Positions 10,119-51,796 of a stretch of DNA of 64,000 nucleotides are shown here, in pieces. Source of the DNA: a virus. Each line of letters starts with the position of its first letter. Position 1 is the stretch's first letter. Location: the IMG/VR virus record IMGVR_UViG_3300046804_002325, positions 112,979 to 176,978 of that record; one strand, given 5' to 3'. The position numbers were made by a program, and so were the translations under genes. The notes beneath the pieces are model-generated. The model was not told the DNA's origin, made no database searches, and worked only from the letters and a program-made list of their open reading frames with translations.

Positions 10119-10193
10119 TGGTGGACCGTGAGAGAATCGAACTCTCACCTGAGGCTTGCAAAGCCACCGTGCTCCCATTATCACTAACAGCCC
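10119..10193 (-). tRNA. tRNA-Ala (TGC)
   Basis: The acceptor GGGCTGT/ACGGTCC contains the G3-T70 wobble that marks alanine, anticodon loop TTTGCAA, discriminator A, CCA encoded. Confidence 0.95.
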
Positions 10194-10242
10194 AAATAAC
10201 TTACTACTTATCTCATTGTACGCCGCAAGTTAAGGCGAGATA
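10194..10242 (-). ncRNA. Short H-type pseudoknot element between tRNA-Pro and tRNA-Ala
   Basis: The 49-base spacer folds on the minus strand as TATCTC/GAGATA plus CGCC/GGCG with loop TTAACTTGC. The loop bases TAACTT are complementary to AAGTTA just downstream, giving a 6-bp pseudoknot. Could be a processing signal or an RNA of its own. Confidence 0.35.
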
Positions 10243-10318
10243 TGGTCTCCGTAGAGGGATTTGAACCCCCACTGCTTGGTCCCAAACCAAGAGCGCTACC
10301 AGGTTACGCTATACGGAG
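10243..10318 (-). tRNA. tRNA-Pro (TGG)
   Basis: Acceptor CTCCGTA/TACGGAG, anticodon stem CTTGG/CCAAG with loop TTTGGGA, T loop TTCAAAT, CCA encoded. Confidence 0.95.
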
Positions 10319-10323
10319 AAAAA

Positions 10324-10399
10324 TGGCTCCCTAGGTATGGATCGAACATACGACATCTTGATTAACAGTCAAGCGCAACTACCTCTGTGCTACTAGGGA
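10324..10399 (-). tRNA. tRNA-Asn (GTT)
   Basis: Acceptor TCCCTAG/CTAGGGA, anticodon stem CTTGA/TCAAG with loop CTGTTAA, T loop TTCGATC, discriminator G, CCA encoded. Confidence 0.95.
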
Positions 10400-10403
10400 A
10401 TAA

Positions 10404-10473
10404 AATCTTGAAAGTTCCGATATCACCCATCGTCACTAACAACCGTTGAGTAACCATGCATCAAAACAAGATT
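10404..10473 (-). ncRNA. Structured non-tRNA element B (7-bp closing stem)
   Basis: Between tRNA-Asn and tRNA-Asp. Closed by AATCTTG/CAAGATT (7 bp), enclosing a hairpin of paired arms GTTACT/AGTGAC extended by AAC-GGTT-GTT, and a second hairpin CGAT/ATCG. The size and 7-bp closure are tRNA-like but there is no CCA and no T arm. Confidence 0.42.
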
Positions 10474-10484
10474 ACTGTTTGCCT

Positions 10485-10559
10485 TGGCGGTCCCAAGGGG
10501 TAACGATCCCCTTCTTTATGCGTGACAGGCATACGTGCGTCCATGAACACTTTGAGACC
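10485..10559 (-). tRNA. tRNA-Asp (GTC), atypical T loop
   Basis: Acceptor GGTCTCA/TGGGACC, D stem GTGT/GCAC, anticodon stem TATGC/GCATA with loop CTGTCAC, discriminator G as in Asp tRNAs, CCA encoded. The T stem AGGGG/CCCCT is intact but the T loop is ATCGTTA instead of TTCGANN, so consensus-based finders may score it low. Confidence 0.87.
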
Positions 10560-10564
10560 TAAAT

Positions 10565-10639
10565 TGGTGCAGGGCTTTCACCTGCTGCTAATCAAACCGG
10601 GTTACGGTGATTAATCTGCCTTGATTATTCCTCAAGGAC
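10565..10639 (-). ncRNA. Structured element C: three tandem hairpins ending in ACCA
   Basis: Minus strand: CCTTGA/TCAAGG with a 7-base loop, TAATCA/TGATTA capped by CCG/CGG, and GCAGG/CCTGC with a 7-base loop, followed directly by ACCA, like the other tRNA 3' ends. No acceptor stem joins the ends, so it is not a cloverleaf. The last hairpin plus ACCA resembles a T-arm minihelix. Confidence 0.42.
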
Positions 10640-10645
10640 TTTTAT

Positions 10646-10730
10646 TGGTGGAGACGGTGTGAGTCGAACACACAATGCCAGAGGCGGCGGATTTACAGTC
10701 CACTGGGGTTACCAATTTTCCTACATCTCC
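10646..10730 (-). tRNA. tRNA-Tyr (GTA)
   Basis: Class II tRNA with extended variable arm, acceptor GGAGATG/CGTCTCC, anticodon stem GTGGA/TCCGC with loop CTGTAAA, T loop TTCGACT, CCA encoded. Confidence 0.94.
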
Positions 10731-10739
10731 ATAATTGTT

Positions 10740-10814
10740 TGGTAGGTCCACAGAGAATCGAACTCTGATTTACTGGTTAAAAGCCAGTTACTTTAGCCGT
10801 TAAGTTATGAACCC
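10740..10814 (-). tRNA. tRNA-Lys (TTT)
   Basis: Acceptor GGGTTCA/TGGACCT with G-T pairs, anticodon stem ACTGG/CCAGT with loop CTTTTAA, T loop TTCGATT, CCA encoded. Confidence 0.95.
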
Positions 10815-10830
10815 ATCTACCATATTAAAT

Positions 10831-10897
10831 CACACTAGGGTGTCACAATCGTTTCTCACCGAGACTTCTCACGGCACCGTCTGCCGATAAGATTGTG
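10831..10897 (-). ncRNA. Structured non-tRNA element D (7-bp closing stem)
   Basis: Closed by CACAATC (minus 5' side) with GATTGTG, 7 bp, enclosing hairpin CGGCA/TGCCG and a TCTC/GAGA hairpin. A short hairpin ACAC-CCTA-GTGT follows at the 3' side. No ORF. Confidence 0.42.
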
Positions 10898-10900
10898 TCC

Positions 10901-11018
10901 ACATTACAAGTCAACTAATTCCAGCACCATCGGAGGGCTTCATGTAAACTTATTCAGCGTGGGTCGGCACCCATCTTGCTACCAAATAAGCCACCTACTG
11001 GAGTTGATAACCTAATGC
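10901..11018 (-). ncRNA. Structured non-tRNA element E (about 118 nt)
   Basis: Ends pair as GCATTA/TAATGT, then TCAAC/GTTGA and CCAG/CTGG. Inside, CTTATT/AATAAG encloses AGC/GCT and TGGGT-GCCG-ACCCA, while GGCTT can alternatively pair with AAGCC. Its size is close to T4 stable RNAs C and D, which also lie in a tRNA cluster. Confidence 0.42.
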
Positions 11019-11027
11019 AATTTAATA

Positions 11028-11102
11028 TGGTACACGGTACGAGAATCGAACTCGTCTTTCCGCCTTGAAAGGGCAGCGTCCTAACCGATAGACGAACCGT
11101 GC
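11028..11102 (-). tRNA. tRNA-Glu (TTC)
   Basis: Acceptor GCACGGT/ACCGTGT, anticodon stem CTGCC/GGCGG with loop CTTTCAA, T arm ACGAG/CTCGT, CCA encoded. Confidence 0.95.
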
Positions 11103-11103
11103 A

Positions 11104-11145
11104 TATTAACTCTACAAATTTTTAAAGAACAAGATGTGTATTGTA
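11104..11145. repeat. 42-base repeat, copy 1: promoter -10 and boxA-like leader
   Basis: Identical to 11824-11865. On the minus strand it runs from TACAAT (-10) through the boxA-like GTTCTTTAAAAATTTG to TAGAGTTAATA. It lies directly upstream of tRNA-Glu. Confidence 0.9.
11115..11130 (-). promoter_or_regulatory. boxA-like antitermination element, copy 1
   Basis: GTTCTTTAAAAATTTG resembles the NusB/NusE-binding boxA of rRNA leaders (E. coli TGCTCTTTAACAA), particularly the form common before rRNA operons of Burkholderiales. It lies just after the start point of the promoter at 11140-11167, as boxA does in rrn leaders. Function inferred. Confidence 0.55.
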
Positions 11146-11167
11146 TCACAACCACATCTTTTGTCAA
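11140..11167 (-). promoter_or_regulatory. Sigma-70-type promoter for tRNA-Glu and downstream tRNAs
   Basis: TTGACA, 16 bases, TACAAT on the minus strand. The spacer and start region form an 8-bp inverted repeat (AAGATGTG/CACATCTT). No gene lies in 11103-11196 besides this promoter and its leader. Confidence 0.8.
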
Positions 11168-11196
11168 CCATCATGTTGTAAAATTACAACACAACT

Positions 11197-11273
11197 TGGA
11201 GTAGGTGACAGGAATCGAACCTGCATAAAATGGATTTGCAATCCACGGCCTAACCGTTCGGCTACACACCTAC
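11197..11273 (-). tRNA. tRNA-Cys (GCA)
   Basis: Acceptor GTAGGTG/CACCTAC fully paired, anticodon stem GTGGA/TCCAT with loop TTGCAAA, discriminator T as in Cys tRNAs, CCA encoded. Confidence 0.95.
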
Positions 11274-11279
11274 ATTGTT

Positions 11280-11371
11280 TGGTACCAGCGGTGAGAATCA
11301 AACTCACTCAAGAACGCTAATCTGGCGCTAAAAGGTGTATAAGACCTCTCTGACTACCAAGTCTCGCTGGC
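11280..11371 (-). tRNA. Unusual tRNA, anticodon TAT (Ile?), long variable arm
   Basis: Acceptor GCCAGCG/CGCTGGT, T arm GTGAG/CTCAC with loop TTTGATT, CCA encoded. The anticodon stem GAGGT/ACCTT has loop CTTATAC, anticodon TAT, which would read AUA. A class II-like arm (AGCGC/GCGTT with a 7-base loop) follows, unexpected for isoleucine. The D arm is GACT/AGTC with a 4-base loop. Identity uncertain. Confidence 0.65.
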
Positions 11372-11374
11372 ATT

Positions 11375-11463
11375 TGGTGGAGACTGTGGGAGTCGAACCC
11401 ACTCGCCGTATCACTACAACGACAGATTAGCAATCTGCTGCATTACCATCCTGCCCAATCTCC
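11375..11463 (-). tRNA. tRNA-Ser (GCT)
   Basis: Class II tRNA with long variable arm, acceptor GGAGATT/AGTCTCC, anticodon loop TTGCTAA, T arm GTGGG/CCCAC, CCA encoded. The discriminator is A rather than the usual G of bacterial Ser tRNAs. Confidence 0.93.
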
Positions 11464-11474
11464 ATAAATATTTT

Positions 11475-11567
11475 GTTAGACTGATTAACTAGCTCGGAAG
11501 GATGCCAACTTTGATAGTTTTGCTAGTTTCCTATCAAACTTGTTGAAAGCCAAATTCCCAGTCTAAC
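11475..11567 (-). ncRNA. Structured non-tRNA element F with 7-bp loop pseudoknot
   Basis: Closed by GTTAGACTG/CAGTCTAAC (9 bp), with GGAA/TTCC inside and a central hairpin TTTGATAG/CTATCAAA (8 bp). The hairpin loop (11522-11528) carries AACTAGC on the minus strand, and GCTAGTT lies near the 3' closing strand (11487-11493): a perfect 7-bp pseudoknot. The most convincing of these RNAs. Confidence 0.5.
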
Positions 11568-11572
11568 GCAAT

Positions 11573-11664
11573 TGGCGGAAAGCAGAGGAGTCGAACCCCA
11601 TCCCATTTCTGAGAACCTAGTTTTCAAGGCTAGTCGCCGGACCATCCCAGCTGCATTACTTTCC
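11573..11664 (-). tRNA. tRNA-Ser (TGA)
   Basis: Class II tRNA, acceptor GGAAAGT/GCTTTCC, anticodon loop CTTGAAA, long variable arm, T loop TTCGACT, discriminator G, CCA encoded. One C-A mismatch in the anticodon stem. Confidence 0.93.
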
Positions 11665-11670
11665 ATATAG

Positions 11671-11739
11671 AAACACACTAACACGGCTACCACACCTTAT
11701 GATGTCCTGTGACCGCACTTCAGGTTAGATAATGTGTTT
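11671..11739 (-). ncRNA. Structured non-tRNA element G (7-bp closing stem)
   Basis: Between tRNA-Ser(TGA) and tRNA-Gln. Closed by AAACACA/TGTGTTT and, after a 4-base bulge, CTAAC/GTTAG. It encloses a CCTG/CAGG hairpin and ACATC-ATAA-GGTGT. 69 nt, no ORF, no CCA. Confidence 0.42.
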
Positions 11740-11744
11740 TTATA

Positions 11745-11818
11745 TGGCACCCCCACTTGGAATCAAACCAAGACTAACAAGTTCAAAGCCTGTTGTGCTA
11801 TCACTACACCATGGAGGA
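11745..11818 (-). tRNA. tRNA-Gln (TTG)
   Basis: Acceptor TCCTCCA/TGGGGGT with T1-T72 unpaired (Gln tRNAs have a weak first pair), anticodon loop CTTTGAA, T loop TTTGATT, discriminator G, CCA encoded. First gene of the array. Confidence 0.92.
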
Positions 11819-11823
11819 ACAAT

Positions 11824-11865
11824 TATTAACTCTACAAATTTTTAAAGAACAAGATGTGTATTGTA
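11824..11865. repeat. 42-base repeat, copy 2: promoter -10 and boxA-like leader
   Basis: Identical to 11104-11145, 720 bases away. It leads directly into tRNA-Gln. The flanking sequences differ, so this is a conserved leader module, not part of a longer duplication. Confidence 0.9.
11835..11850 (-). promoter_or_regulatory. boxA-like antitermination element, copy 2
   Basis: Same GTTCTTTAAAAATTTG as copy 1, at the same distance from its promoter and 16 bases before tRNA-Gln. Confidence 0.55.
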
Positions 11866-11887
11866 ACAGAATCAAAGAATCTGGCAA
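11860..11887 (-). promoter_or_regulatory. Sigma-70-type promoter at the head of the tRNA array
   Basis: TTGCCA, 16 bases, TACAAT on the minus strand, just downstream of the terminator at 11914-11946. It starts the tRNA transcription unit as a separate operon. Confidence 0.78.
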
Positions 11888-11913
11888 CTACACTGTTGTT
11901 TTGAAACAACAAA

Positions 11914-11946
11914 CAAAAAACCCTAGTAGATTTCTCTTACTAGGGT
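11914..11946 (-). terminator. Rho-independent terminator
   Basis: Minus strand: CCCTAGTA/TACTAGGG, 8 bp with a 9-base loop, followed by six T. It ends the transcript from the promoter at 12123-12151 and insulates the tRNA operon. Confidence 0.88.
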
Positions 11947-12116
11947 CTTGTGTTTGGAGTCTTTTTAGAACTTCTGTTTTCAGTTCTCCATCTTCACACA
12001 AAACCCGAGCGACCATGAGCCATTATCGGCACTATTAATGGTGCGATACTCTGGCTGCAACGTAAAGGGTTTATGGGATATGAGAGACACTTTTTTCTTT
12101 CTAAAAAATTAAATAT
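11915..12116 (-). ncRNA. Candidate stand-alone small RNA (about 200 nt)
   Basis: A consensus-like promoter (12123-12151) and a strong terminator (11914-11946) bracket about 200 bases with no ORF longer than about ten codons. The stretch folds on its own: AAACCC/GGGTTT (12001-12006 with 12067-12072) encloses CCATTA/TAATGG, and AGAACT/AGTTCT forms a hairpin before the terminator. I recognise no known RNA family. Confidence 0.5.
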
Positions 12117-12122
12117 GTTTGT

Positions 12123-12151
12123 ATTATATAGTAAACTTGGCACCTTGGCAA
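12123..12151 (-). promoter_or_regulatory. Strong sigma-70-type promoter of the candidate small RNA
   Basis: TTGCCA, 17 bases, TATAAT on the minus strand, between the end of the metalloprotein gene and the tRNA operon terminator. Confidence 0.82.
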
Positions 12152-12175
12152 GCGGTTTTTGAAAATATTTTTTAA

Positions 12176-12679
12176 TTATTTCCACCTAATTGGTTCGGAG
12201 ACCACGGGTAGATTTGGATTTTTGAATCCGTGGAAGACTTCCCACAGACATTCTTGTACAGCAAACTTGGTCAAAAGACCTGCTTCACGACCATGAGCAT
12301 CTATTTCCCATGGATGTTCCCAATAATCTACCTTATCAGAATCTATGCGTTTACCTCTCCACATGGACAGGTCATCATTCGTTTCACCACAGATTAGTTG
12401 CTTGACATGCACCATTTCATGTGCAAGTGTGGAGAGTATGGTAGATGCACCTAGACCAGGATGAACCTCAATTAGAAACTGTCGAGGTTGATTTCTTGTA
12501 TTGTAACCTTCCGCACCACATGATCCATAATTGTCCAACTTGGCATCAAAACGAACAATCGTGGTACAATTATTTCTTATTCTGGAATTTGTTATCAATT
12601 CTTTAGCGAAAAATTCGGTTGCCCGTACAATGTAAGGCTTAAAGTATTTGTCAGGACAGTTGTAGACTTTTACTTGCAT
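12176..12679 (-). CDS. SprT-like zinc metalloprotein
   Basis: A 167-residue protein with a zincin motif HEMVHVKQ (HExxH, about residue 88), preceded by STILSTLAHE and followed by the downstream acidic region YWEHPWEIDAHGREA that may supply the third ligand (E or H). This layout is like the SprT/Spartan-type and related putative metallopeptidases found widely in phages; the N-terminal half (YIVRATEFFAKELI) is helical. A substrate is unknown; Spartan proteases cut DNA-bound proteins, but activity here is inferred. It lies 8 bases after the dCMP deaminase gene and is the last gene before the small RNA promoter. Confidence 0.8.
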   Translation of the reverse strand: MQVKVYNCPDKYFKPYIVRATEFFAKELITNSRIRNNCTTIVRFDAKLDNYGSCGAEGYNTRNQPRQFLIEVHPGLGASTILSTLAHEMVHVKQLICGETNDDLSMWRGKRIDSDKVDYWEHPWEIDAHGREAGLLTKFAVQECLWEVFHGFKNPNLPVVSEPIRWK

Positions 12680-12687
12680 AAGCCTAT

Positions 12688-13116
12688 TTAGATTTGCTCT
12701 ACTTTTACTCCTGCTTTTTCCAGGAATCGTAGGCCACTTTCACTGCGATAAGTGTTACGGTAATAGACAGAACTGATACCAGATTGGTAAACCAGTTTGG
12801 CACAGTCCAAGCAAGGTGCATGAGTGACAAACAAAGTAGAGCAAATGCCAGATTCATTTGATTTTGCCAGCTTAGCGATTGCATTAGTTTCAGCATGAAG
12901 TACCTCCGGTTTAGTTGTTAATAAGGTAACGCCACCCTGAACCTTTTCTTCGGTTTCACAGTTGTTATCCCAACCGGATGGCATTCCATTGTAACCAATA
13001 GAAATGATGCGGTCATCTTTTACAATAACCGCACCAACCTTCAATCGTCTGGCTGTAGAACATTCTGCGAATGTCTCAGCCATCTTCATATACGCATCAC
13101 GAAATTTTTGTTTCAT
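12688..13116 (-). CDS. cd: dCMP deaminase
   Basis: A 142-residue zinc-dependent deaminase that converts dCMP to dUMP, feeding dTMP synthesis during phage replication. The catalytic motif is HAETNAIAKLA (about residue 70) and the zinc-binding PCLDCAKLV (about residue 100), the HAE...PCxxC signature of the family; the start KFRDAYMKMAETFAECSTARRLKVGAVIV is also typical. It is shorter than T4 Cd (193 residues). It begins in a TAATG overlap with the rubredoxin gene. Confidence 0.95.
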   Translation of the reverse strand: MKQKFRDAYMKMAETFAECSTARRLKVGAVIVKDDRIISIGYNGMPSGWDNNCETEEKVQGGVTLLTTKPEVLHAETNAIAKLAKSNESGICSTLFVTHAPCLDCAKLVYQSGISSVYYRNTYRSESGLRFLEKAGVKVEQI

Positions 13117-13265
13117 TAGTCAAAGTCTACTGGATAATAATCATGTTTACCAACACCACATTCTGGACAACCAACTTCTTCTGGTAGTGATTGCCAATCA
13201 GATTCTTTCATTGTGTGGCCACAAACGATGCACACATAATCTCTTTCTTGATTTTGATTTTCCAT
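13116..13265 (-). CDS. Rubredoxin-like protein
   Basis: A 49-residue ORF with the two iron-binding knuckles of rubredoxin: YVCIVCGH (CxxCG, about residue 10) and VGCPECGVGKHDYYPV (CPxCG, about residue 33), separated by the usual LP-containing segment (SLPEEVG). Rubredoxins carry one electron on an Fe(Cys)4 centre. It starts in a TAATG overlap with the end of the rubrerythrin gene and ends in a TAATG overlap with dCMP deaminase, so it is surely translated. In full-length rubrerythrins this domain is fused to the diiron domain; here it is split off, probably giving the reductant for its neighbour. Confidence 0.88.
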   Translation of the reverse strand: MENQNQERDYVCIVCGHTMKESDWQSLPEEVGCPECGVGKHDYYPVDFD

Positions 13266-13717
13266 TATTGTACCTCTTGTAACATTCTTTGATATGCTGT
13301 TGCGTGGCGTTCTTCAACTTTTGCTAGTGCTTCAAAACGCTTTTCGGCCAATGCGAGAACTTTACGGAATTCTTCCGCATGTGTTTGACTTTCTGCGATT
13401 TGATGTGCAGCTTCACGCTCCGCTTCTTGGTTGCCTTCGATTTGTGCTTCACGCAACATAGAAGGATACATTTCGGTGAATTCGTGTGTTTCACCTTCAA
13501 TAGCCATCTCTAAACACTTGCGTGTATCTGGTTTACCAACCAACAATTCTAGGTGACCCCATGCATGTTTGATTTCTTGGTCTGCTGTATGTTCAAAGTG
13601 TTTTGCAACTTCTTCGTAACCTTCAGCACGAGCCAACTTGGCAAAATAACGGTATTTGATATGCGCCATTGACTCACCTGCCAATGCACTCTCAAGGTTT
13701 TTTAATGTAACTGACAT
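13265..13717 (-). CDS. Rubrerythrin-like diiron protein
   Basis: A 150-residue ferritin-like four-helix protein. Ligand-type motifs ALAGESMAHIKYRYFAKLA (E and ExxY type, about residue 14), DQEIKHAWGHL (ExxH, about residue 48), EGETHEFTEMYP (about 74-90) and ESQTHAEEFRKVLA (ExxxH, about residue 108) match the diiron site of rubrerythrin. The family reduces hydrogen peroxide and protects from oxidative stress. The C-terminal rubredoxin domain is absent but is supplied by the next gene. A 6-bp hairpin (AAGTAA/TTACTT) lies in the leader just before the AAAGGAA ribosome site. A phage may use it to keep host redox state stable during infection. Confidence 0.88.
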   Translation of the reverse strand: MSVTLKNLESALAGESMAHIKYRYFAKLARAEGYEEVAKHFEHTADQEIKHAWGHLELLVGKPDTRKCLEMAIEGETHEFTEMYPSMLREAQIEGNQEAEREAAHQIAESQTHAEEFRKVLALAEKRFEALAKVEERHATAYQRMLQEVQ

Positions 13718-13817
13718 AATTTCCTTTCAATAGTTAAGTAACCTCATGGATTACTTATCATAGTATATCGCTATTTCGATAGAAAATCTAATTGAAAATT
13801 TCTATCATCGTAATAGT

Positions 13818-13894
13818 TGGTGCGCCCACTAGGACTTGAACCTAGGACCAATGGATTATGAGTCCACTGCTCTGACCAACTGAGCTATAGGCGC
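13818..13894 (-). tRNA. tRNA (CAT), probably Ile2 or Met
   Basis: Highly canonical: acceptor GCGCCTA/TGGGCGC, D arm AGCTCAGTTGGTCAGAGC, anticodon loop CTCATAA, T loop TTCAAGT, CCA encoded. The 3' half resembles E. coli tRNA-Ile2, which is converted by TilS to read AUA, but methionine cannot be excluded. It stands alone, 2 kb from the main array. Confidence 0.92.
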
Positions 13895-42709: not shown

Positions 42710-42717
42710 TATTTATA
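42710..42717 (-). promoter_or_regulatory. T4-type late promoter for gp13-gp19
   Basis: Exact TATAAATA (minus strand) 24 bases upstream of the gp13 ATG, which also has AAGGAG. It separates the morphogenesis block from the accessory block at 42.7-47.6 kb. Confidence 0.75.
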
Positions 42718-42961
42718 TTCGACCCCATCCTATGCCATTCCACACTCTTTCGTGACACCAGTAGATAAACGGTTTTACAACCATTTCTGTGGCACCTATA
42801 CTCAGACTAACTATCCATTCGCCAGTAAAAGCATAAGAAATTAACATCGTGGTAAATGTACCACAGAACCTGTAACTATATGCCTTTACAAAGCTTCTGG
42901 TTGCAGTTTCAGATTTATTTAAGGCCCATTGATTTACGAATTTTTGTAGCAGAGATTTCAT
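42713..42961 (-). CDS. DUF2061 small membrane protein
   Basis: An 82-residue protein starting MKSLLQKFVNQWALNKSETA at 42961 and overlapping the upstream kinase gene by 47 bases. The motif RSFVKAYSYRFCGTFTTMLISYAFTG followed by EMVVKPFIYWCHERVWNGIGWGR is the DUF2061 pattern: two transmembrane helices with a conserved HERVW. DUF2061 proteins often lie next to or are fused with APS kinase (CysC), and here the neighbour is CysC-like, which strengthens both calls. The function is unknown; transport or retention at the membrane is possible. Confidence 0.85.
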   Translation of the reverse strand: MKSLLQKFVNQWALNKSETATRSFVKAYSYRFCGTFTTMLISYAFTGEWIVSLSIGATEMVVKPFIYWCHERVWNGIGWGRI

Positions 42962-43709
42962 GTGTCTTATCATCAAATACCTCTTGTTCAATCTTATATC
43001 CCACATCACGTCCATAGGTAATGTTTACAATATTTGGCACAACCTGAATTTCATATTTTCCCTGGTAAATAGGGTCCAAGTCTCGTCTGATATATTGTTT
43101 GACCTGTTCGATTGCAAAAGGATTTGATCCTTGCCAACCTTGACAGTCTCTAATCTGTATTACGACCTGACCTGTCTTTTGAATTGCACGCTCAAACAAA
43201 GCACGGTGACCAGCATGCCATGGTTGCCAACGACCTAACATTTGTACCGTTTCTTTTTGCCAGTCAAATACTGGTCTACGGAAGTTTCCTAAGATGTGGT
43301 GTGCAATAAATTCACTCCATTTTTCACTGTTCTGTTCCGTGATTCTAAAATCATATACCTCTGGTGGAATAAAAGCCTTGTTGGTATCTTCAAATCTCCC
43401 CTTTTCGATAGTGTCAACCCACACAGTCCAGTCTGCTTTGAAGTTGTTACGCATTTCAACCAAAGGTGCCACAAAATCACAGATGACATAATCCATATCA
43501 GTCATGGAGTCTGCCAGTTCTCTCATGCGGTGACTTTGCCTGATTCTTCCTTCTGTACTGAAGTCCCAGTCATTATATTTTTTGCGTACATCATCAGCAT
43601 TCAACCAACCAACTTTCTTGTTGGCTGATTGTAAATGATCCAGTACATATTGTGCTAGGTATGTTTTACCAGAACCTGGCAATCCCATAATTAAAATTCG
43701 TTGTGTCAT
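42915..43709 (-). CDS. APS kinase-like domain fused to HxGH nucleotidyltransferase
   Basis: A 264-residue fusion. N-terminal domain (about 1-150): P-loop LIMGLPGSGKTYLAQYV, then the APS-kinase-like NADDVRKKYNDWDFSTEGRIRQSHRMREL (D-D-x-R and the FSTEGRIRQ loop), as in CysC, which turns APS into the sulfate donor PAPS. C-terminal domain (about 170-264): LGRWQPWHAGHRALFERA (HxGH) and ISATKIRKSM (ISxTxxR), the two signatures of cytidylyl-/adenylyltransferases such as NMNAT. ATP sulfurylase also uses an HxGH-like site, so the fusion could be a two-step PAPS maker, but this is inference. Kinase substrate unknown; a sulfotransferase lies two genes upstream. Confidence 0.82.
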   Translation of the reverse strand: MTQRILIMGLPGSGKTYLAQYVLDHLQSANKKVGWLNADDVRKKYNDWDFSTEGRIRQSHRMRELADSMTDMDYVICDFVAPLVEMRNNFKADWTVWVDTIEKGRFEDTNKAFIPPEVYDFRITEQNSEKWSEFIAHHILGNFRRPVFDWQKETVQMLGRWQPWHAGHRALFERAIQKTGQVVIQIRDCQGWQGSNPFAIEQVKQYIRRDLDPIYQGKYEIQVVPNIVNITYGRDVGYKIEQEVFDDKTHEISATKIRKSMGLK

Positions 43710-44599
43710 TTTTTCTCCATCATTTTGTCAATAAATTTATCCATATTAATATCGAAAGAATCATATACCACATTTGCTCTTTTAGGTATTTCAAAGGTGT
43801 CCGACTTTATTTCCACGGTATTCATCCAAACCACAAAATTGGGTGATAAGTAATCACGTGATGATAAACGTTCACATTTGAAATCTATAACCGTAAACTC
43901 TGTTGGTGCCAACACTGCCAACTTTTTCAATCGTTCGGCCTGTCTGTTTTCACCTTCTATGGATGTATCGGTATCGTTAAACATTTCGTTTATCGTTTCA
44001 CCATGTATATATGTGGCCTTCAGTCTGTCTGCTAATTTTTTACTGAAAGTGGTTTTTCCGGAACCTTTTTCACCCATAACTAAAATGGTATTTGATAGTG
44101 GTGTTGGATTTTCTGTTATATCAAACGACTGAATGATTGTTGGCTCACTGAAGGCATGAAACATCCATGGCCTATAAAATAATCCTTGACCTGGTTCCAT
44201 TAATATCTGTGTCTGGTATTCCCACTCAAAAAGATTATTGTAATTAAAATTATAATTTTGTAGAGCAGAAGTGACACCAGTTTTGTGGTAAAACATCGTA
44301 AAGATTGTTGGTTGAATTGCAACAACAAATTTCCACTCGGTGTAATTTGTGAAAGTATTGTATCTAATTCCTGTATTTGGCTTGTAAAAGTAACCGGATT
44401 CTTCACTGATTGTTACTTTTGTATTTAATACTTCACTGAATGTTTTGATTGCATCTGGTTGAATATAATTAAAACCTGTATTAACACTACCAAATTCAGT
44501 AGGTGCATACACTAAAGTATTTACTATTGAGTTCAATCCTTTAACTTGTTCTTCATTGTAAAAGTTTGATGTGTGAATAAAATTTAATACATTATACAT
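43706..44599 (-). CDS. Cupin/JmjC-like domain fused to APS kinase-like domain
   Basis: A 297-residue protein. The N-terminal part (about 1-165) is beta-rich, with TNYTEWKFVVAIQPTIFTMFYHK and LMEPGQGLFYRPWMFHAF, which look like strands and a ligand-binding loop of a cupin or 2OG-oxygenase fold, with a possible second His in FHAF; the HxD motif is not evident. The C-terminal part has a P-loop LVMGEKGSGKTTFSKKL and INEMFNDTDTSIEGENRQAERLKKLA, which parallels the loop of the next gene's kinase (ND-D-S-EG-RQ). It is thus a second APS-kinase-like protein. It overlaps both neighbours by 4-8 bases. Confidence 0.7.
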   Translation of the reverse strand: MYNVLNFIHTSNFYNEEQVKGLNSIVNTLVYAPTEFGSVNTGFNYIQPDAIKTFSEVLNTKVTISEESGYFYKPNTGIRYNTFTNYTEWKFVVAIQPTIFTMFYHKTGVTSALQNYNFNYNNLFEWEYQTQILMEPGQGLFYRPWMFHAFSEPTIIQSFDITENPTPLSNTILVMGEKGSGKTTFSKKLADRLKATYIHGETINEMFNDTDTSIEGENRQAERLKKLAVLAPTEFTVIDFKCERLSSRDYLSPNFVVWMNTVEIKSDTFEIPKRANVVYDSFDINMDKFIDKMMEKK

Positions 44600-45377
44600 A
44601 TTGTTTTTCTAATTCCACAAATCTATTGTATAGTTCGTCACCCAAAATAATTCTTGGATCTTTTGCGGTTTTTTCCAACTTAGGTCTGATGGTGTGTAAC
44701 CCATCAAAACCCCAGGCCACCAAATCGTCATCTACGGTATCGTTGATGATGTTTTCAAAGTCATAATTGAATTTTGGTAACTCTAAAAAATCTTCAATTC
44801 TTTGTAGTTGTGTTCTGGCATCATTCATCAAATCATCATATGTCACCACCACTATTTGGTCAGGAACTTCTTTTTTAATTTGATATGTACCTTCCATGCA
44901 GTCTTTGACCATATCAAACCACATCTCTGCCATGCGGTTATCATCGGTTGGCGGAAAACCTTTACGCATAATGGTTTCGTCTAAGTAACATTCTTTTTGT
45001 TTTCTGATAATAGTTAACCAACTAGCCATAATACTGGGTAAGTCTCGTTCCATTACAATGACTTTGATTTTCTTTTCAAACAACGCATTGGCTGTTAACA
45101 TATTCTTTGCCCAACCTCTACCTTTATCTATGATAATGGGTTCTGGTCTGTGCTGCCAAAAAGCAGGAAGAACTGCTTTGGTAATATTGCGTGCTTGTTC
45201 CTCAAAGTAGTTTGCTTTGACTGTCGGATCTTCTCTCCATGCGTCCTGCATCTTCACTGTCACATTCAACATAGGACTTGTGGGTGTTACATATACCTGT
45301 GGGTTTTGGTTTAGTATACTCGCCAGTAATGTTGATCCGGATCTTGGTAATCCTGATAAAAAATGTAATGTTTTCAT
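44592..45377 (-). CDS. Sulfotransferase (PAPS-dependent)
   Basis: A 261-residue cytosolic-type sulfotransferase. The 5'-phosphosulfate-binding loop is at the N-terminus, LHFLSGLPRSGSTLLASIL (P-loop-like, residue 10). The 3'-phosphate segment is seen around IKVIVMERDLPSIMASWLTIIRK (residue 105) with a conserved R/S pattern. The C-terminal VAWGFDGLHTIRPKLEKT is typical of the family. Such enzymes move sulfate from PAPS to sugars, lipids or Tyr. The two APS-kinase-like genes next to it could supply PAPS. Target unknown; phage tail glycans or host surface glycans are candidates. Confidence 0.85.
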   Translation of the reverse strand: MKTLHFLSGLPRSGSTLLASILNQNPQVYVTPTSPMLNVTVKMQDAWREDPTVKANYFEEQARNITKAVLPAFWQHRPEPIIIDKGRGWAKNMLTANALFEKKIKVIVMERDLPSIMASWLTIIRKQKECYLDETIMRKGFPPTDDNRMAEMWFDMVKDCMEGTYQIKKEVPDQIVVVTYDDLMNDARTQLQRIEDFLELPKFNYDFENIINDTVDDDLVAWGFDGLHTIRPKLEKTAKDPRIILGDELYNRFVELEKQYV

Positions 45378-45727
45378 TTGTCAATCATGTTGGGTATAGT
45401 TGGGTGGTGTCCTTTGCGACAATCAAATTGTCTGCAAGCTTTAGGTCTGTATTCATATATCGAACATTTGCCGTCAATAAACATTCCACATCCACCTTCT
45501 TTCTTTCTGTATAAAACGACAACGGGTCCGATATCTGGATTAATTTGTTTTTGTTCTATTGTTGGATTTATTAAACTCAATGGATATAATCCTGAAGCAA
45601 CTTCTTCCGGTGATAGAAATGGTGATAATTTTTCACAACAAAGTGTACAGGTGCCACACGGCACAATTTCTTCCGGCTCTTCAGATTTTATGGAAGATAG
45701 ATTTATATTAATTGTTTGTATTTTCAT
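45374..45727 (-). CDS. YkgJ-family cysteine cluster protein
   Basis: A 117-residue protein with the CxxCxxCC-type cluster of UPF0153/YkgJ: VPCGTCTLCCEKLSPF (about residue 23), then GCGMFIDGKCSIYEYRPKACRQFDCRKG (about residues 79-106), a set of about eight Cys that binds zinc or iron. In bacteria the family is uncharacterised and often lies beside modification or maturation enzymes; here it lies between the sulfotransferase and the TPR-glycosyltransferase. A role in maturation of a neighbour is inferred, not shown. Confidence 0.88.
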   Translation of the reverse strand: MKIQTININLSSIKSEEPEEIVPCGTCTLCCEKLSPFLSPEEVASGLYPLSLINPTIEQKQINPDIGPVVVLYRKKEGGCGMFIDGKCSIYEYRPKACRQFDCRKGHHPTIPNMIDK

Positions 45728-47027
45728 TCTTCAAATAATCATTCAATTCAAGTAATGGTGCTTTCCAATTATCATACTCACTTTGCCTGAAGATTGTCAG
45801 ATTATCACCATACCATTTGGTGTGATACTCTGGTTTTGCCCAAGTGTAATATGTTAGAATTGGAATAATAACAACTGATTGTTTTCCAATTGCACCGGCT
45901 GCATGTATCAATGATGTACAACTAGAAACCACAATATCCATTTGATTGATGTAATCAAGTGTATCGTCCCAGGTTTTAATTTTATCTTTTAATTGTATAA
46001 CTCTAGGATGACTAAAATCTTCATCTATGTGAAAAGAATAAATTTCATAATCTTCCGGAATACTATCAATCAATTCTTCAAATGGAATAGTTCTATGTAA
46101 GTCTTGGTCATACTTTGGATTACCCATACACTTGATGCCAATTTTCTTTTTGCCAGTGTTTGGTAATTTAGGTGAAACGTTTAATGGTTTCAGATATGTG
46201 CCGTACCATAAATCATCTTCTTCTAAATCCAAGTAAGTTGGGCTTGGCATAGAATATGTCCATAACCAATCATATGATATTTCTTTAAGATTTGTTACCG
46301 TTTCAAAACCACAACGATTGAAAATGCTTGCAATATCTTTTCTATTTGTAAACCAAATAGGATTCATTCCAACATCTTTAAAGTGTTTCATAAATCTAAC
46401 TGAAATGATTTCGTCACCAATACCACCTTCGGCACAAAGCACGATTGTTTTACCCGGTTGTGGTGTGCCTTCCCATAGTTGATTTTTTGGAAAGTTGAAT
46501 GATTCCCAGATGTTTAATTTTCTACCATCTAGTAACACATGCCTCAAACCTTCTTTGAAATTTCCATTACGTAAGTCATATGTACCTAGATTAAAGTTTA
46601 CTCTAAAATCAATATCATCTGTGTGCGGCTCGGTTAAAATGTTTCTCAGTATCTTTTCACCTTCATCTTTTCTGTCAAGTAAGAAATATGCCATTGCCTT
46701 ATCCATTTGATTTGGATGGTCATTTGGTCTTTCCTTTTCGTTAATACCGATATAAACCAATGCTTCTTTTGGCTTGTTAAGGTTTAGATATGCACGAATG
46801 ATATTAACTCTTGCATCAAATCTGGCATCATCGTTGGTCACCAATGCATACATTTTTTGTGCCAGTTCTAGTGTATCATTGAACTCTCTAATCTCGGCAT
46901 ATAATTTACCTAGTTGGTCCATTTCACCCAAACCGGTGGCATATGGTTTAAGAAGGTCTAGAACTATTTTAGCTTTCTCACTTTGTTTAATTTTAATAAA
47001 AAATTCAGCGGTCGATAACGGATTCAT
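45708..47027 (-). CDS. TPR protein with GT9-like glycosyltransferase domain
   Basis: A 439-residue protein. The N-terminal half (about 1-165) consists of TPR-like helical repeats (AEFFIKIKQSEKAKIVLDLL, RAYLNLNKPKEALVYIGI, FNLGTYDLRNGNFKEGLRHV). The C-terminal half has the GT9/heptosyltransferase-like fold marks VLCAEGGIGDEIISVRFM (GGxGD) and VVSSCTSLIHAAGAIGKQSV (SxxxHxAGA). Such TPR-GT fusions are common in marine bacteria and phages; the acceptor is unknown. It overlaps the methyltransferase gene upstream and the YkgJ gene downstream, so it belongs to the same operon. Confidence 0.83.
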   Translation of the reverse strand: MNPLSTAEFFIKIKQSEKAKIVLDLLKPYATGLGEMDQLGKLYAEIREFNDTLELAQKMYALVTNDDARFDARVNIIRAYLNLNKPKEALVYIGINEKERPNDHPNQMDKAMAYFLLDRKDEGEKILRNILTEPHTDDIDFRVNFNLGTYDLRNGNFKEGLRHVLLDGRKLNIWESFNFPKNQLWEGTPQPGKTIVLCAEGGIGDEIISVRFMKHFKDVGMNPIWFTNRKDIASIFNRCGFETVTNLKEISYDWLWTYSMPSPTYLDLEEDDLWYGTYLKPLNVSPKLPNTGKKKIGIKCMGNPKYDQDLHRTIPFEELIDSIPEDYEIYSFHIDEDFSHPRVIQLKDKIKTWDDTLDYINQMDIVVSSCTSLIHAAGAIGKQSVVIIPILTYYTWAKPEYHTKWYGDNLTIFRQSEYDNWKAPLLELNDYLKNENTNN

Positions 47028-47568
47028 CTTTATAAACTACCCATTGTATATGATATTCATTGATAACATTATTAAAAGACCTTGCTGCATGTTCACACTG
47101 TTCTTCGGTCATTTGTTGAAATTGTTTTTGCCAATATTCATCCAAAACAGGAGAAAAATTTAAAACACGCATGTCAACATTATTGATTAAACCAATAGGT
47201 GTTTCACATCCACCTGCGGCAATATCTCTTAGGTTACGTTCTTTAGAGAACATATCCAATGTGTGTGGATATACAGGTCTTTTATGAGAGGGGTCTATTA
47301 AGAATGTGTCGTGTCTAGGATGTGGAACTCTAACATCAATCGTTGTGCCGTGTTTACACACACGGTATAGTTCCTTGACACAATGAAAAAACCCATCACC
47401 CAGGTGTTCTAGTATGTGATGAGCAATAATACTGTCCACAGAACTATCTTCAAATGGTAGTTTATCTTTTTCTAAGTCGATAACAAAATCTGGTTTTGAA
47501 CCAGCATCATTATCAATATTTAAATAACCGGGAATTCTTTTTGAACCGGATCCAAGGTTTAGTTTCAT
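47005..47568 (-). CDS. SAM-dependent methyltransferase (class I)
   Basis: A 187-residue Rossmann methyltransferase. Motif I is MKLNLGSGSKRIPGYLNID (LGSGS), the second strand ends PDFVIDLEKDKLPFEDSSVDSI and the typical IIAHHILEHLGDGFFHCVKELYRVCKHGTTIDVRVP is motif 4-5. Such proteins often modify sugars in surface-glycan clusters. It is the first gene of the accessory operon, whose later genes are a glycosyltransferase, YkgJ protein, sulfotransferase and APS-kinase-like genes. Confidence 0.88.
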   Translation of the reverse strand: MKLNLGSGSKRIPGYLNIDNDAGSKPDFVIDLEKDKLPFEDSSVDSIIAHHILEHLGDGFFHCVKELYRVCKHGTTIDVRVPHPRHDTFLIDPSHKRPVYPHTLDMFSKERNLRDIAAGGCETPIGLINNVDMRVLNFSPVLDEYWQKQFQQMTEEQCEHAARSFNNVINEYHIQWVVYKDESVIDR

Positions 47569-47624: not shown

Positions 47625-48764
47625 TTAAGTGATGGTTCTCCAGGTGCCGTTGATTGCGGATGTGTTAAACCCCACAGAGGATACTTGTTTCCAATTAGTA
47701 CCACCTGAAATTGTTTGTATTGGACTAGATTTAGACAGTACTGTATTATCACCTAATTGGCCATAATTATTATAACCCCATAACCATAATGTGCCATCTG
47801 TTTTGATTGCGGCAGTATGGTTTCTTCCACATGCCAATAGTTTCCAATTGGTACCCGATGCAACAGTTTGAACTGGACTTGAATAATCTGTTATGTTGTT
47901 GGTTCCTAATTGACCATAAATGTTTCGGCCCCACAACCATAGTGTACCATCTGTTTTGATTGCGGCAGTATGAGACTGTCCGCCAGATGATTGTTTCCAA
48001 TTAGTTCCACCTGCAACAGTTTGAACTGGACTAGACCTGTTTGTTATATTATTTGTACCTAATTGACCAACATTGTTTCTGCCCCATAACCATAGTGTAC
48101 CATCTGTTTTGATTGCTGTTACATGATATATTCCCGTTGATGTTGATTTCCAATTTGTACCGGCTGCAATTGTTTGTACAGGACTAGATTTGTCTATTCT
48201 TGTGTTATCACCCAAAGTACCGTCATTGTTATATCCCCATGTCCATAACGTGCCATCTGTTTTGATTGCCGCAGAAAAGTATGAATTAGAAGAAATTAAT
48301 TTCCAATTTTTTTCTGTACCAAGTTGTACAGGACTGGAATAATTTGTGATGTTACCTGTTCCCAGTTGACCGTTTCCATTATTTCCCCATACCCACAATG
48401 ATCCGTCTGTTTTGATTGCGAACACTGACATTTGATTAGAATATACATACTTCCAATTTGTACCGGCTGCAATTGTTTGCACAGGACTGGATGTGCTAGC
48501 GGTTGTGTTATTACCTAATGTACCATTGCTATTATATCCCCATGTCCATAACGTGCCGTCTGTTTTTATTGCTGCATTATGATAGCCACCGATTCCAACT
48601 AATTTCCAATTTGATCCGGAAGCAACAGTTTGCACAGGACTGGATCTATTGACTAAGGTTTCATCACCAGCAGCTCCAAATCCGTTGTATCCCCATGACC
48701 ACAATCCGCCTTGGTTAAAATAACTTACCGGTACCAACAATTCCTCTAAATTATTATACGACAT
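47625..48764 (-). CDS. RCC1-repeat protein 1 (seven-bladed propeller adhesin)
   Basis: A 379-residue protein made of seven RCC1-type repeats of about 50 residues, each with IKTDGTLWTWGYN, GQLGDNT and SSPVQT elements, i.e. a full seven-bladed beta-propeller. The N-terminal 25 residues (MSYNNLEELLVPVSYFNQGG) would be a connector. Phage RCC1-repeat proteins are virion-associated in other phages; here it is next to fibre genes, so a receptor-binding or fibre-tip role is likely. Three such genes lie in this region and differ mostly in the blade surface residues. Confidence 0.85.
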   Translation of the reverse strand: MSYNNLEELLVPVSYFNQGGLWSWGYNGFGAAGDETLVNRSSPVQTVASGSNWKLVGIGGYHNAAIKTDGTLWTWGYNSNGTLGNNTTASTSSPVQTIAAGTNWKYVYSNQMSVFAIKTDGSLWVWGNNGNGQLGTGNITNYSSPVQLGTEKNWKLISSNSYFSAAIKTDGTLWTWGYNNDGTLGDNTRIDKSSPVQTIAAGTNWKSTSTGIYHVTAIKTDGTLWLWGRNNVGQLGTNNITNRSSPVQTVAGGTNWKQSSGGQSHTAAIKTDGTLWLWGRNIYGQLGTNNITDYSSPVQTVASGTNWKLLACGRNHTAAIKTDGTLWLWGYNNYGQLGDNTVLSKSSPIQTISGGTNWKQVSSVGFNTSAINGTWRTIT

Positions 48765-48766
48765 GA

Positions 48767-49978
48767 TTAGAAGTCCTCATTAAAATCTTTGATGGCAAAA
48801 AATTTTCCTGTTCCGCCGCTAATTTGTTTCCAATTAGTTCCACCACTAACTGTTTGCACTGGACTAGAGTAATGTGTTGTGTTATTGGTTCCCAGATTAC
48901 CATAAAAATTAGCTCCCCAAGTCCAAAGAGTGCCATCCGTTTTCAAAGAGTATGTACTGTAATTGCCAGTTGAAACCTGTTTCCAATTGGTACCAGCGGA
49001 TATAGTTTGCACTGGACTTGACGTATTGGTTGTATTATTTGTACCTAATTGACCATAATTATTATTACCCCATAACCACAGGGTACCATTAGTCTTAATG
49101 GATGCAATATGATTGTAACTACTGACAGAACACTGTTTCCAATTATTTCCACCAGAAACCGTTTGAACTGGACTGGATTTTCTTACGCTCGTATTATCAC
49201 CCAACCCACCATAACCATTAAATCCCCATAACCACAGGGTACCGTCTGTTTTGATTGCCGCAACTGTTGATCCGCCAGCTGAAACCTGTTTCCAATTGGT
49301 ACCAGCGGATATAGTTTGTACTGGACTTGACCTATTGGTTGTATTATTTGTACCCAATTGACCATTGCCGTTGTCTCCCCATAACCACAGGGTACCGTCT
49401 GTTTTGATTGCTGACATAAACAAATCTCCACCAGTGGTGTACTTCCAATTAGTTCCACCAGATACTGTTTGAACTGGACTGGATCTATTAGTTGCAGTGT
49501 TATCGCCCAACTGGCCAGAGTTATTTTTCCCCCACATCCATAATGTGCCATCTGTTTTGATTGCTCCAAATGTTCTATCTCCGGCGCCAACTTGAATCCA
49601 GTTCGTCCCTGCACTAATTGTCTGTACGGGAGAACTGACTGAATTTGTGTTATTGTTACCTAATTCACCATAAGCATTATATCCCCATAACCACAGGGTA
49701 CCGTCTGTTTTGATTGCTGCTGCCGATGGCCCCCAACTGGATGTTACTTGCTTCCAGTTGGCGCCCCCCGATATAGTTTGTACTGGGCTAGACTTGTCAA
49801 CACTAGTTCTGTCGCCCAGTTGACCGACGAGAGCATAACCACATCCCCACAATCCAGCACTCTTTGCTTGGTCACTAAGTTGTGGATATGCATCAAACAA
49901 ATATTGTTTAGTTACATATCCACCTGGACTAAAATATCCATCAATGGGTATAGGAACTCCACTTTCACTGTATGCCAT
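48767..49978 (-). CDS. RCC1-repeat protein 2 (seven-bladed propeller adhesin)
   Basis: A 403-residue protein, seven RCC1-type repeats preceded by a distinct N-terminal segment (MAYSESGVPIPIDGYFSPGG, then KQYLFDAYPQLSDQAKSAGL) which may attach it to the fibre or baseplate. The repeats contain IKTDGTLWLWG, GQLGTNN and SSPVQTIS. It lies 2 bases before RCC1 gene 1 and was probably made by duplication. Confidence 0.85.
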   Translation of the reverse strand: MAYSESGVPIPIDGYFSPGGYVTKQYLFDAYPQLSDQAKSAGLWGCGYALVGQLGDRTSVDKSSPVQTISGGANWKQVTSSWGPSAAAIKTDGTLWLWGYNAYGELGNNNTNSVSSPVQTISAGTNWIQVGAGDRTFGAIKTDGTLWMWGKNNSGQLGDNTATNRSSPVQTVSGGTNWKYTTGGDLFMSAIKTDGTLWLWGDNGNGQLGTNNTTNRSSPVQTISAGTNWKQVSAGGSTVAAIKTDGTLWLWGFNGYGGLGDNTSVRKSSPVQTVSGGNNWKQCSVSSYNHIASIKTNGTLWLWGNNNYGQLGTNNTTNTSSPVQTISAGTNWKQVSTGNYSTYSLKTDGTLWTWGANFYGNLGTNNTTHYSSPVQTVSGGTNWKQISGGTGKFFAIKDFNEDF

Positions 49979-50609
49979 TTAAGGTCACCCTTGGATTAAA
50001 TTCATTGTGTAATAATTCTAAATCTTCTAATGATGTTTTACTATCAATAAGATTGATTCTATTGCGTTCTTCTGCAAAACAATTTTGTATATGTTCATTA
50101 ATAGATTGAACAATATTTTGTAAATCAACCAAAGATAATGTTACATAACCCTCATTGAACTTCCAATCATATGAACTAGAGTTCATTTGTAATTGTTCAA
50201 TGTATATTTTTCTACCTTCACGAGAGGTATCAACTGAATATTCTATATCATTGATAGTAACTTTAATTCCGCCGACTTCTTTCTTCCATCTTTTATCTGC
50301 AACAATTTGTTTCAATTCAGATTTTAAATGTTCTACATCTTTGTCTATCGCAACAAAATTACCTACTGCTTCTGTTTCAGTAATAGTCCAGAAAGGACCG
50401 TTGTGTTTTTGTGTTATTGGATTGTGTTCTTCATGTGTATATCTTGCTGGAAGAATGACAATTTCATCATTTACTGTGTACGGGACATCATTTTTTTGTG
50501 GTAGTGTTACTTGAACTTCACAATCTTCTTCTATGATGTTTTCAAAGAAAAACTTTCTCCATGGCATTGGCCCTAGAATTACTTGATTATTGTATACGAT
50601 TACAAACAT
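49965..50609 (-). CDS. Fibre-associated protein with DUF4376-like C-terminus
   Basis: A 214-residue protein from the ATG at 50609 (MFVIVYNNQVILGPMPWRKF), with GGAAT upstream; the frame upstream of it is AT-rich spacer. After a beta-rich N-terminal half (EVQVTLPQKNDVPYTVNDEI and PARYTHEEHNPITQ), the C-terminal part WKFNEGYVTLSLVDLQNIVQSINEHIQNCFAEE has the DUF4376 pattern found in phage tail fibre proteins and their accessory proteins. It lies between two RCC1 genes, so it may be a shared assembly factor or connector. Function is inferred from context. Confidence 0.72.
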   Translation of the reverse strand: MFVIVYNNQVILGPMPWRKFFFENIIEEDCEVQVTLPQKNDVPYTVNDEIVILPARYTHEEHNPITQKHNGPFWTITETEAVGNFVAIDKDVEHLKSELKQIVADKRWKKEVGGIKVTINDIEYSVDTSREGRKIYIEQLQMNSSSYDWKFNEGYVTLSLVDLQNIVQSINEHIQNCFAEERNRINLIDSKTSLEDLELLHNEFNPRVTLNGIQ

Positions 50610-50623
50610 TATTATATTCCTTA

Positions 50624-51796
50624 TTATTGTAGATCCGAAAAAGTCGTTGCTGAGGTAATAAGATACCCACAAGAAACTTGTTTCCAATTTGTTCCACTGG
50701 ATATAGTTTGGACTGGACTGGATGTGGATGTAAAAGTATTGGTTCCTAATTGGCCGAACGCATCACTCCCCCAAAGCCACAGCTCGCCATTAGTCTTAAT
50801 AGCGGCAGTATGGCTTGAACCGGTAGCAACAGATTTCCAATTTGTTCCACCGGTTATAGTTTGAACTGGGCTCGATTTGGATACTGTGGTATTATCACCT
50901 AGTTGAGCATTACCATTATTTCCAAAGAGCCACAACGTACCATCTGTTTTAATAGCACTAATGTGGCCACCAATGCTGGCAGAAACTGACTTCCAATTAT
51001 TTCCGCCTGCAATTGTTTGTACAGGACTGGATTTATTGGTTGTTGTGTTATCACCTAATTGACCATATTGATTATTACCACACAACCATAAGGTACCATC
51101 TGTTTTAATCGCAGCAGTAAAACTTGAGCCAACACTCACTTGATTCCAATTATTTCCGGTACCAAATGTTTGTGCTGGACTACTTTTATTGGTTAGAGTA
51201 TTGTCGCCCAATTGACCATTATTATTTTGGCCCCACAACCACAGTGTGCCATCGGTTTTAATTGCAGCAACGTGTTGAAAACCGGCACTTAATTTTTTCC
51301 AATTATTTCCAGCAGCAATGGTTTGAACGGGACTGGAATAGTTGGTTGTGTTATTGGTTCCTAATTGACCAACATTGTTTCTGCCCCATAACCACAACGT
51401 TCCGTCAGTTTTAATTGTTGTTGTGTAGTAGGATCCACACGAGACAAGATTCCAATTATTGCCACCACTTATAGTCTGTACAGGGCTAGATTTTTTGGTT
51501 GTTGTGTTATCTCCTAACTGTCCATAATAACGATTATCGCCCCACAACCATAAGGTGCCATCAGTTTTTATTCCAGCAATGTGATAATATCCCGTGGATG
51601 TTTGCTTCCAATTAGTTCCACCTGAAATAGTTTGTAACGGACTACCGTTGTAATTACCAGTCGCATTATTTCCTAACTGACCGTGGTTATTCAGTCCCCA
51701 CGCCCACAATCTATTACCGATATAATTATCAATTAAATCGGATTCTTTTAAATATTTTTTATCAAGTGTATCACCGTTACTAAAATTGAAGGCCAT
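50624..51796 (-). CDS. RCC1-repeat protein 3 (seven-bladed propeller adhesin)
   Basis: A 390-residue protein with seven RCC1-type repeats (IKTDGTLWLWG, GQLGDNT, SSPVQTI, NWKQVSCG at the end) and an N-terminal leader MAFNFSNGDTLDKKYLKESD. It overlaps the S74 fibre gene by one base. Compared with the other two copies the blades differ mostly in the variable loops, as in receptor-binding diversification. Confidence 0.85.
   Translation of the reverse strand: MAFNFSNGDTLDKKYLKESDLIDNYIGNRLWAWGLNNHGQLGNNATGNYNGSPLQTISGGTNWKQTSTGYYHIAGIKTDGTLWLWGDNRYYGQLGDNTTTKKSSPVQTISGGNNWNLVSCGSYYTTTIKTDGTLWLWGRNNVGQLGTNNTTNYSSPVQTIAAGNNWKKLSAGFQHVAAIKTDGTLWLWGQNNNGQLGDNTLTNKSSPAQTFGTGNNWNQVSVGSSFTAAIKTDGTLWLCGNNQYGQLGDNTTTNKSSPVQTIAGGNNWKSVSASIGGHISAIKTDGTLWLFGNNGNAQLGDNTTVSKSSPVQTITGGTNWKSVATGSSHTAAIKTNGELWLWGSDAFGQLGTNTFTSTSSPVQTISSGTNWKQVSCGYLITSATTFSDLQ

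Follow-up and report, generated by a model that had tools for sequence, protein, structure and literature searches.

A kinase–adenylyltransferase fusion protein as a candidate compact PAPS synthase in a putative phage glycan-sulfation operon

Phage sulfotransferases and viral cysC have already been listed as auxiliary genes, with their role unsettled (PMC10580990, PMC8066274, PMC8290583): for the sulfotransferases of phages such as S-SRM01 and S-SKS1 the role is stated as unclear (PMC10580990), and in Lake Baikal viromes cysC and nadM are listed separately, without a joint function, as auxiliary metabolic genes (PMC8066274). In SAR11 bacteria, aprAB is described as a core pair under strong purifying selection and the sulfate pathways as incomplete (PMC12636525). 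Here we analyze an operon of a T4-like phage represented by IMG/VR virus record IMGVR_UViG_3300046804_002325, in a window comprising the final 64 kb (64,000 nucleotides) of the 176,978-base record; the phage has terminase, neck, and tail-fibre genes. The operon—seven minus-strand open reading frames (ORFs) at 42713–47568, each overlapping the next end to start, as an earlier note on this DNA had described it—encodes a 264-aa protein joining an adenosine 5′-phosphosulfate (APS) kinase-like domain to a domain resembling nicotinamide mononucleotide (NMN) adenylyltransferases (NMNAT). We propose, with a probability of roughly 0.5, that the operon serves as a self-contained module by which a phage-made glycan is sulfated, and that the 264-aa protein is a compact synthase of 3′-phosphoadenosine 5′-phosphosulfate (PAPS).

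Under this proposal, the C-terminal NMNAT-like domain would form APS from ATP and sulfate in an ATP-sulfurylase-like step, and the N-terminal kinase would phosphorylate the APS 3′-OH to give PAPS. The sulfotransferase would then use PAPS to sulfate a sugar, itself the product of a protein combining tetratricopeptide repeats (TPR) with a GT9-like half; the methyltransferase would modify the same glycan, and the adjoining fibre proteins would be its likeliest carriers. The kinase and sulfotransferase steps may be drawn from homology and residues and the NMNAT step from gene context; the acceptor we infer.

The 264-aa protein matched PF01583 (APS_kinase) at 2.1e-11, with 44.5 bits against a Pfam cut-off of 21.1, and conserves Asp39, Arg42, Phe50, and Arg55—the catalytic Asp and APS-pocket residues. 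In APS kinases, the matching residues hold APS; all four are also kept in the relatives' short kinases that adjoin sulfotransferases. An AlphaFold2 model from a 46-sequence alignment reached a mean predicted local distance difference test (pLDDT) score of 91.6, replacing an earlier shallow-alignment prediction in which the C-terminal domain was poor. Foldseek placed APS kinases at the top of its PDB matches, APS-bound 7yq1 first; human PAPS synthetase came second, aligned over 215 columns. From homology, fold, and residues we propose that this kinase may convert APS to PAPS. Against NCBIfam APS-kinase equivalogs, the protein scored 36–40 bits, far under the cut-offs of 127–139, and the absence of the CysC lid segment weighs against the proposal.

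The earlier note had counted two APS-kinase-like proteins, a description that needs revision: one is the kinase–NMNAT-like fusion, and the other, a 297-aa protein, carries a diverged kinase on a separate N-terminal domain and has no match to PF01583. The kinase half of this protein diverged from the 264-aa kinase, its paralogue (phmmer, 2.4e-12), keeping the P-loop but altering the pocket (D39E, R42N, F50T, and R55E in 264-aa numbering). Because the APS-holding residues have changed, this copy has probably lost the ability to act on APS, judging by its sequence. Its first ~160 residues have no Pfam or PDB match; the domain occurs stand-alone in relatives, from which the domain boundaries were taken. 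Searched against viral sequences, the 297-aa protein found a single weak relative.

The C-terminal domain of the 264-aa protein (residues ~147–264) gave a CTP_transf_like match over the Pfam cut-off and carries HxGH and ISxTxIR motifs, as GRWQPxHxGH and ISATKIR; against NMNAT equivalogs it scored about 28 bits, with cut-offs of 127–181. PF01747 (ATP sulfurylase) matched neither the 264-aa protein nor anything elsewhere in the virus record, and because of this we assign no membership of the ATP sulfurylase family and treat the domain as a possible functional equivalent only. Pfam or single-sequence searches found no homologue of ATP sulfurylase, CysH, CysQ-like proteins, or YeiH in the virus record. 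Gene context supports the view that the domain may act on sulfate or APS: the NMNAT-like gene holds ATP-sulfurylase-like gene positions in SAR11 apr blocks and in CysI-CysH operons.

Homologues of the kinase and the NMNAT-like domain occur in SAR11, SAR86, and other Proteobacteria, either fused or as two overlapping genes. Thirteen of the 21 SAR11 NMNAT-like loci fetched for the apr question (L189 and L192–L203) lie in an aprM-aprB-aprA block, and six more SAR11 loci unite the kinase, the NMNAT-like gene, and apr genes (L110, L112, L113, L135, L137, and L143; L113 is cut off at aprM by the end of its contig). SAR11 aprA and aprB exceed the NCBIfam cut-offs. Across 118 SAR11 genomes, 60 had both the NMNAT-like gene and aprA, 15 only the former, 5 only aprA, and 38 neither, a co-occurrence whose P value (2e-13) is inflated by shared ancestry, a confounding that counts against the case; the NMNAT-like gene was present in 50 of the 51 genomes having the kinase. 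Most SAR11 genomes are without ATP sulfurylase and CysD: PF01747 was found in 8 of the 118 genomes and not in the other 110. One SAR11 genome (G112) has a sulfotransferase directly after the kinase. For sulfite oxidation in SAR11, we regard the apr-block NMNAT-like gene as a candidate to carry out the step that follows APS. At the same apr-block loci (L110, L112, L135, L137, L143, L189, and L192–L203), a CADD-family (TenA/PqqC-like) gene usually accompanies it, and SuyB- and HIT-family-like genes are often near. In some neighbourhoods of SAR11 and SAR86, GcvT-family, Rieske, and M24-peptidase genes were present; these gave no hint of a function.

The second context comes from four further small alphaproteobacterial genomes (L225–L228), each with an operon CobA-CysI-CysH-DUF2061-kinase-NMNAT in which CysH, CysI, and CobA are over cut-offs. 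Sulfate reduction requires ATP sulfurylase and APS kinase ahead of CysH, and it is their place that the kinase and NMNAT-like genes occupy here. DUF2061 accompanies the two genes in these operons as it does in the phage, and the bacterial operons suggest that it has a role in sulfate metabolism. A DUF2061 gene adjoins the kinase–NMNAT gene in many viral loci. The expectation that CysH-operon genomes would be without ATP sulfurylase failed for G174, the only one of them that was scanned: within the roughly 0.82 Mb covered, a homologue of ATP sulfurylase lies outside the CysH operon, and the classic enzyme cannot be called absent there. The homologue (L260:1793-2857) belongs to a surface-polysaccharide island that includes NeuB-like and PIG-L-like genes.

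Slightly short of even odds, we propose that the C-terminal ~115-aa domain represents a new compact NMNAT-derived ATP sulfurylase family, which would serve an APS-forming or -consuming step beside SAR11 aprBA and assimilatory sulfate reduction elsewhere among small alphaproteobacteria, and which, when joined to the kinase, would provide PAPS for glycan sulfation in hundreds of phages. Several results, the G174 homologue among them, count against this assignment. The nearest solved relatives of the domain are NMN adenylyltransferases (2qjt, profile search, E = 8.5e-9); in hhalign comparison with an ATP sulfurylase, the ISxTKIR motif alone aligned (20%); and the remaining 8 of the 21 SAR11 loci are away from apr, 2 in genomes without aprA and 6 in genomes with aprA elsewhere. 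In a rather unlikely alternative, sulfation uses the kinase and sulfotransferase only, the host supplies APS, and the NMNAT-like domain makes or recycles another adenylylated compound. It would account for the kinship with NMN adenylyltransferases, the want of real ATP sulfurylase similarity, the ATP sulfurylase in one CysH-operon genome, and the finding that sulfotransferase-adjacent kinases in viral loci L002–L015 are without the NMNAT-like domain. It accords poorly, however, with a domain or gene that accompanies two kinds of APS-handling enzymes—aprBA and the kinase–CysH set—and with the many SAR11 genomes that show no other ATP sulfurylase.

The proposed sulfation module also draws on the sulfotransferase, which combines PF13469/PF00685 family matches with both PAPS-binding motifs, the 5′-phosphosulfate-binding SGLPRSGSTLL and the 3′-phosphate-binding RDLPSIMAS, conserved among homologues. 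A short kinase directly follows the sulfotransferase in 9 of 14 viral loci close to that of the window, several of them nearly identical; in two others of the 14, the sulfotransferase is followed by an NMNAT-like gene and then a kinase–DUF2061 fusion (L012), or by a 297-aa-type fusion as the next gene (L014). PF13469 was over cut-off in 10 of 25 long viral contigs carrying the 264-aa protein. Within about five genes, a recognised sulfotransferase family was present at 24 of 80 kinase–NMNAT loci, or 36 by looser criteria; the strict count omits neighbour clusters c15, c18, and c32, whose hhalign probabilities were low. Five loci (L061, L083, L095, L047, and L040) have several P-loop sulfotransferase-like genes around the kinase–NMNAT gene; some of these clusters also contain a GDSL-like hydrolase and a gene resembling the tripartite tricarboxylate receptor TctC.

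The identity of the glycan-building partner is less secure. Of the TPR/GT9-like transferase named in the earlier note, the TPR part holds by PDB profile search; the GT9 part does not go beyond motifs. The protein has no Pfam (PF01075) or solved-structure match to GT9, the PDB profile search matched nothing in its C-terminal half, and hhalign to one GT9-like protein gave a probability of 22%, so that the weak GT9 label weighs against a glycan module. In relatives, methyltransferase homologues adjoin the TPR–GT9-like genes and the YkgJ protein recurs in related operons. One locus contains two natural fusions, GT9-like–methyltransferase and sulfotransferase–GT9-like (L068:75-1796 and L068:4425-6212), in a single cluster with GT25, GT2, and a 264-aa-type kinase–NMNAT gene. 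The methyltransferase part of the first fusion and the GT9-like part of the second are homologous to the corresponding operon proteins. The sulfotransferase–GT9-like fusion favours a glycan acceptor, and the adjacency of fibre genes a virion location; both may hold as inferences. The core of the earlier note's suggestion, that the operon could make PAPS and sulfate a sugar, is strengthened as a prediction by the conserved pocket residues, recurrent sulfotransferase neighbours, the sulfotransferase–GT9-like fusion, and bacterial sulfate operons; its count of two APS-kinase-like proteins is not supported as it stood.

Sulfate might instead be placed on tyrosines of fibre proteins or on host surface glycans, altering adsorption or superinfection, which we judge unlikely. 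The solved structures nearest to the sulfotransferase are, by a weak match, tyrosylprotein sulfotransferases, and fibre genes adjoin the operon; the glycosyltransferase-like and methyltransferase genes that recur beside it, like the sulfotransferase–GT9-like fusion, nevertheless point to a glycan, whether on the virion or on the host surface.

Relatives of the 264-aa protein were found in at least 596 viral sequences, including five contigs above 340 kb; the cultivable Stenotrophomonas phage Suzuki also has a kinase–NMNAT gene. Among 11 phage homologues, protein identity was 82–89% and fourfold sites matched, codon by codon, at 23–43%, with synonymous sites saturated. Because protein identity is high while fourfold synonymous sites have diverged, the likeness of these homologues reflects strong purifying selection sustained over a long period and not a recent transfer.

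That spread across unrelated phages, together with the NMNAT similarity, would fit metabolic cargo: a NadR-like or other cofactor enzyme (NAD, coenzyme A [CoA], or similar) whose place in the operon is incidental. Working against the sulfation module and toward such an enzyme, 29 of the 80 viral copies lie in FolE/QueD/QueE (preQ0) clusters with no recognised sulfotransferase near; in these 29 loci, L016 among them, a second nucleotidyltransferase adjoins (L016:4002-4493). We consider a cofactor role distinctly improbable, as profile, fold, and pocket residues all place the kinase nearest to APS kinases, with NadR kinase and CoaE farther off, and its bacterial operon partners are sulfate enzymes. 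An early leaning toward a NadR- or CoA-type enzyme, prompted by the scarcity of ATP sulfurylase and CysD in SAR11 genomes, was reversed by the aprMBA and CysI-CysH operons. Very improbable is a 3′-phosphonucleotide donor whose non-sulfate group is moved by the sulfotransferase-fold enzyme, as in the Campylobacter phosphoramidate pathway. A kinase lid shorter than in CysC would fit this, but the genomic partners are sulfate enzymes and the APS-pocket and PAPS-binding motifs are conserved.

The genes of the operon are collected in Table 1, in order from 47568 down. The assignments of the PAPS-type sulfotransferase, DUF2061, YkgJ, and methyltransferase in the earlier note were each confirmed over Pfam cut-offs. 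RCC1-repeat fibre genes flank the operon on one side and neck genes on the other; in related phage contigs, the sulfotransferase, TPR–GT9-like, YkgJ, methyltransferase, and kinase genes recur jointly between fibre and neck genes, and for this reason we take their grouping to be more than chance. No phage record matched the operon when searched at the DNA level, and relatives were then found by protein searches. The true start of the DUF2061 ORF is probably internal. Beside the fibre genes, 47625–51796 encodes three mutually similar RCC1-repeat proteins, with a longer row in L053. Elsewhere in the window, 28 tRNA genes lie on the minus strand at 7791–13894, nearly all within 4 kb.

Table 1. Genes of the putative sulfation operon, by window coordinates
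Feature	Coordinates	Strand	Support
SAM-dependent (S-adenosylmethionine) methyltransferase, 187 aa, first gene of the operon	47005..47568	-	Methyltransf_11 5.2e-7, over Pfam cut-off
TPR protein with GT9-like C-terminal half, 439 aa, putative glycosyltransferase	45708..47027	-	TPR by PDB profile search
YkgJ-type CxxCxxCC protein, 117 aa	45374..45727	-	PF03692 2e-8, over cut-off
PAPS-type sulfotransferase, 261 aa	44592..45377	-	Sulfotransfer_3 4.5e-18 and Sulfotransfer_1 4.3e-12, both over cut-off
297-aa fusion: N-terminal domain ~1-160 (without Pfam/PDB match), diverged P-loop kinase ~165-297	43706..44599	-	
Kinase–NMNAT fusion, 264 aa: APS-kinase-like 1-145, NMNAT-like adenylyltransferase 147-264	42915..43709	-	
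DUF2061 small membrane protein, domain at residues 43-93	42713..43015	-	PF09834 2.8e-17

Our literature search, whose scope left out most subscription papers, found no report of the NMNAT-like gene as a sulfate enzyme; if the assignment is true, the family would be new. The small adenylyltransferase gene of the apr block is a concrete, testable candidate for a missing SAR11 enzyme. If phages do supply PAPS themselves, in connection with sulfotransferases and glycosyltransferases, this would explain phage sulfotransferases of no known role and would predict sulfated phage or host-surface glycans. The cysC and nadM genes of Lake Baikal freshwater viruses are probably of the same kind as the kinase–NMNAT genes, and some viral genes listed separately under these names would then be one sulfate-activating enzyme.

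Among described systems, Synechococcus phages S-SRM01 and S-SKS1 share the sulfotransferase family with this phage (27–35% identity), and S-SRM01 also has a TPR–GT9-like gene, a glycosyltransferase, and a nucleotide-sugar epimerase nearby; a kinase–NMNAT homologue was not found in these two phages. The APS kinase CysC (PF01583) has the fold, P-loop, and main APS-pocket residues of the phage kinase, whereas the phage lid is short and its score far below the NCBIfam equivalog cut-offs. NMN adenylyltransferases of the NadM/NadR type share the GRWQPxHxGH and ISATKIR motifs and are the closest solved structures to the C-terminal domain, but the phage domain is shorter, falls far below equivalog cut-offs, and has sulfate enzymes as gene partners. 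Bifunctional PAPS synthetases (human PAPSS1, 1x6v; Aquifex, 2gks) differ in that the phage adenylyltransferase is ~115 aa, NMNAT-like, and not PF01747, and its kinase lacks the CysC lid segment. They nonetheless present the same architecture, a kinase joined to an HxGH-superfamily adenylyltransferase, and in PAPSS1 the kinase precedes the adenylyltransferase, as it does in the 264-aa phage protein.

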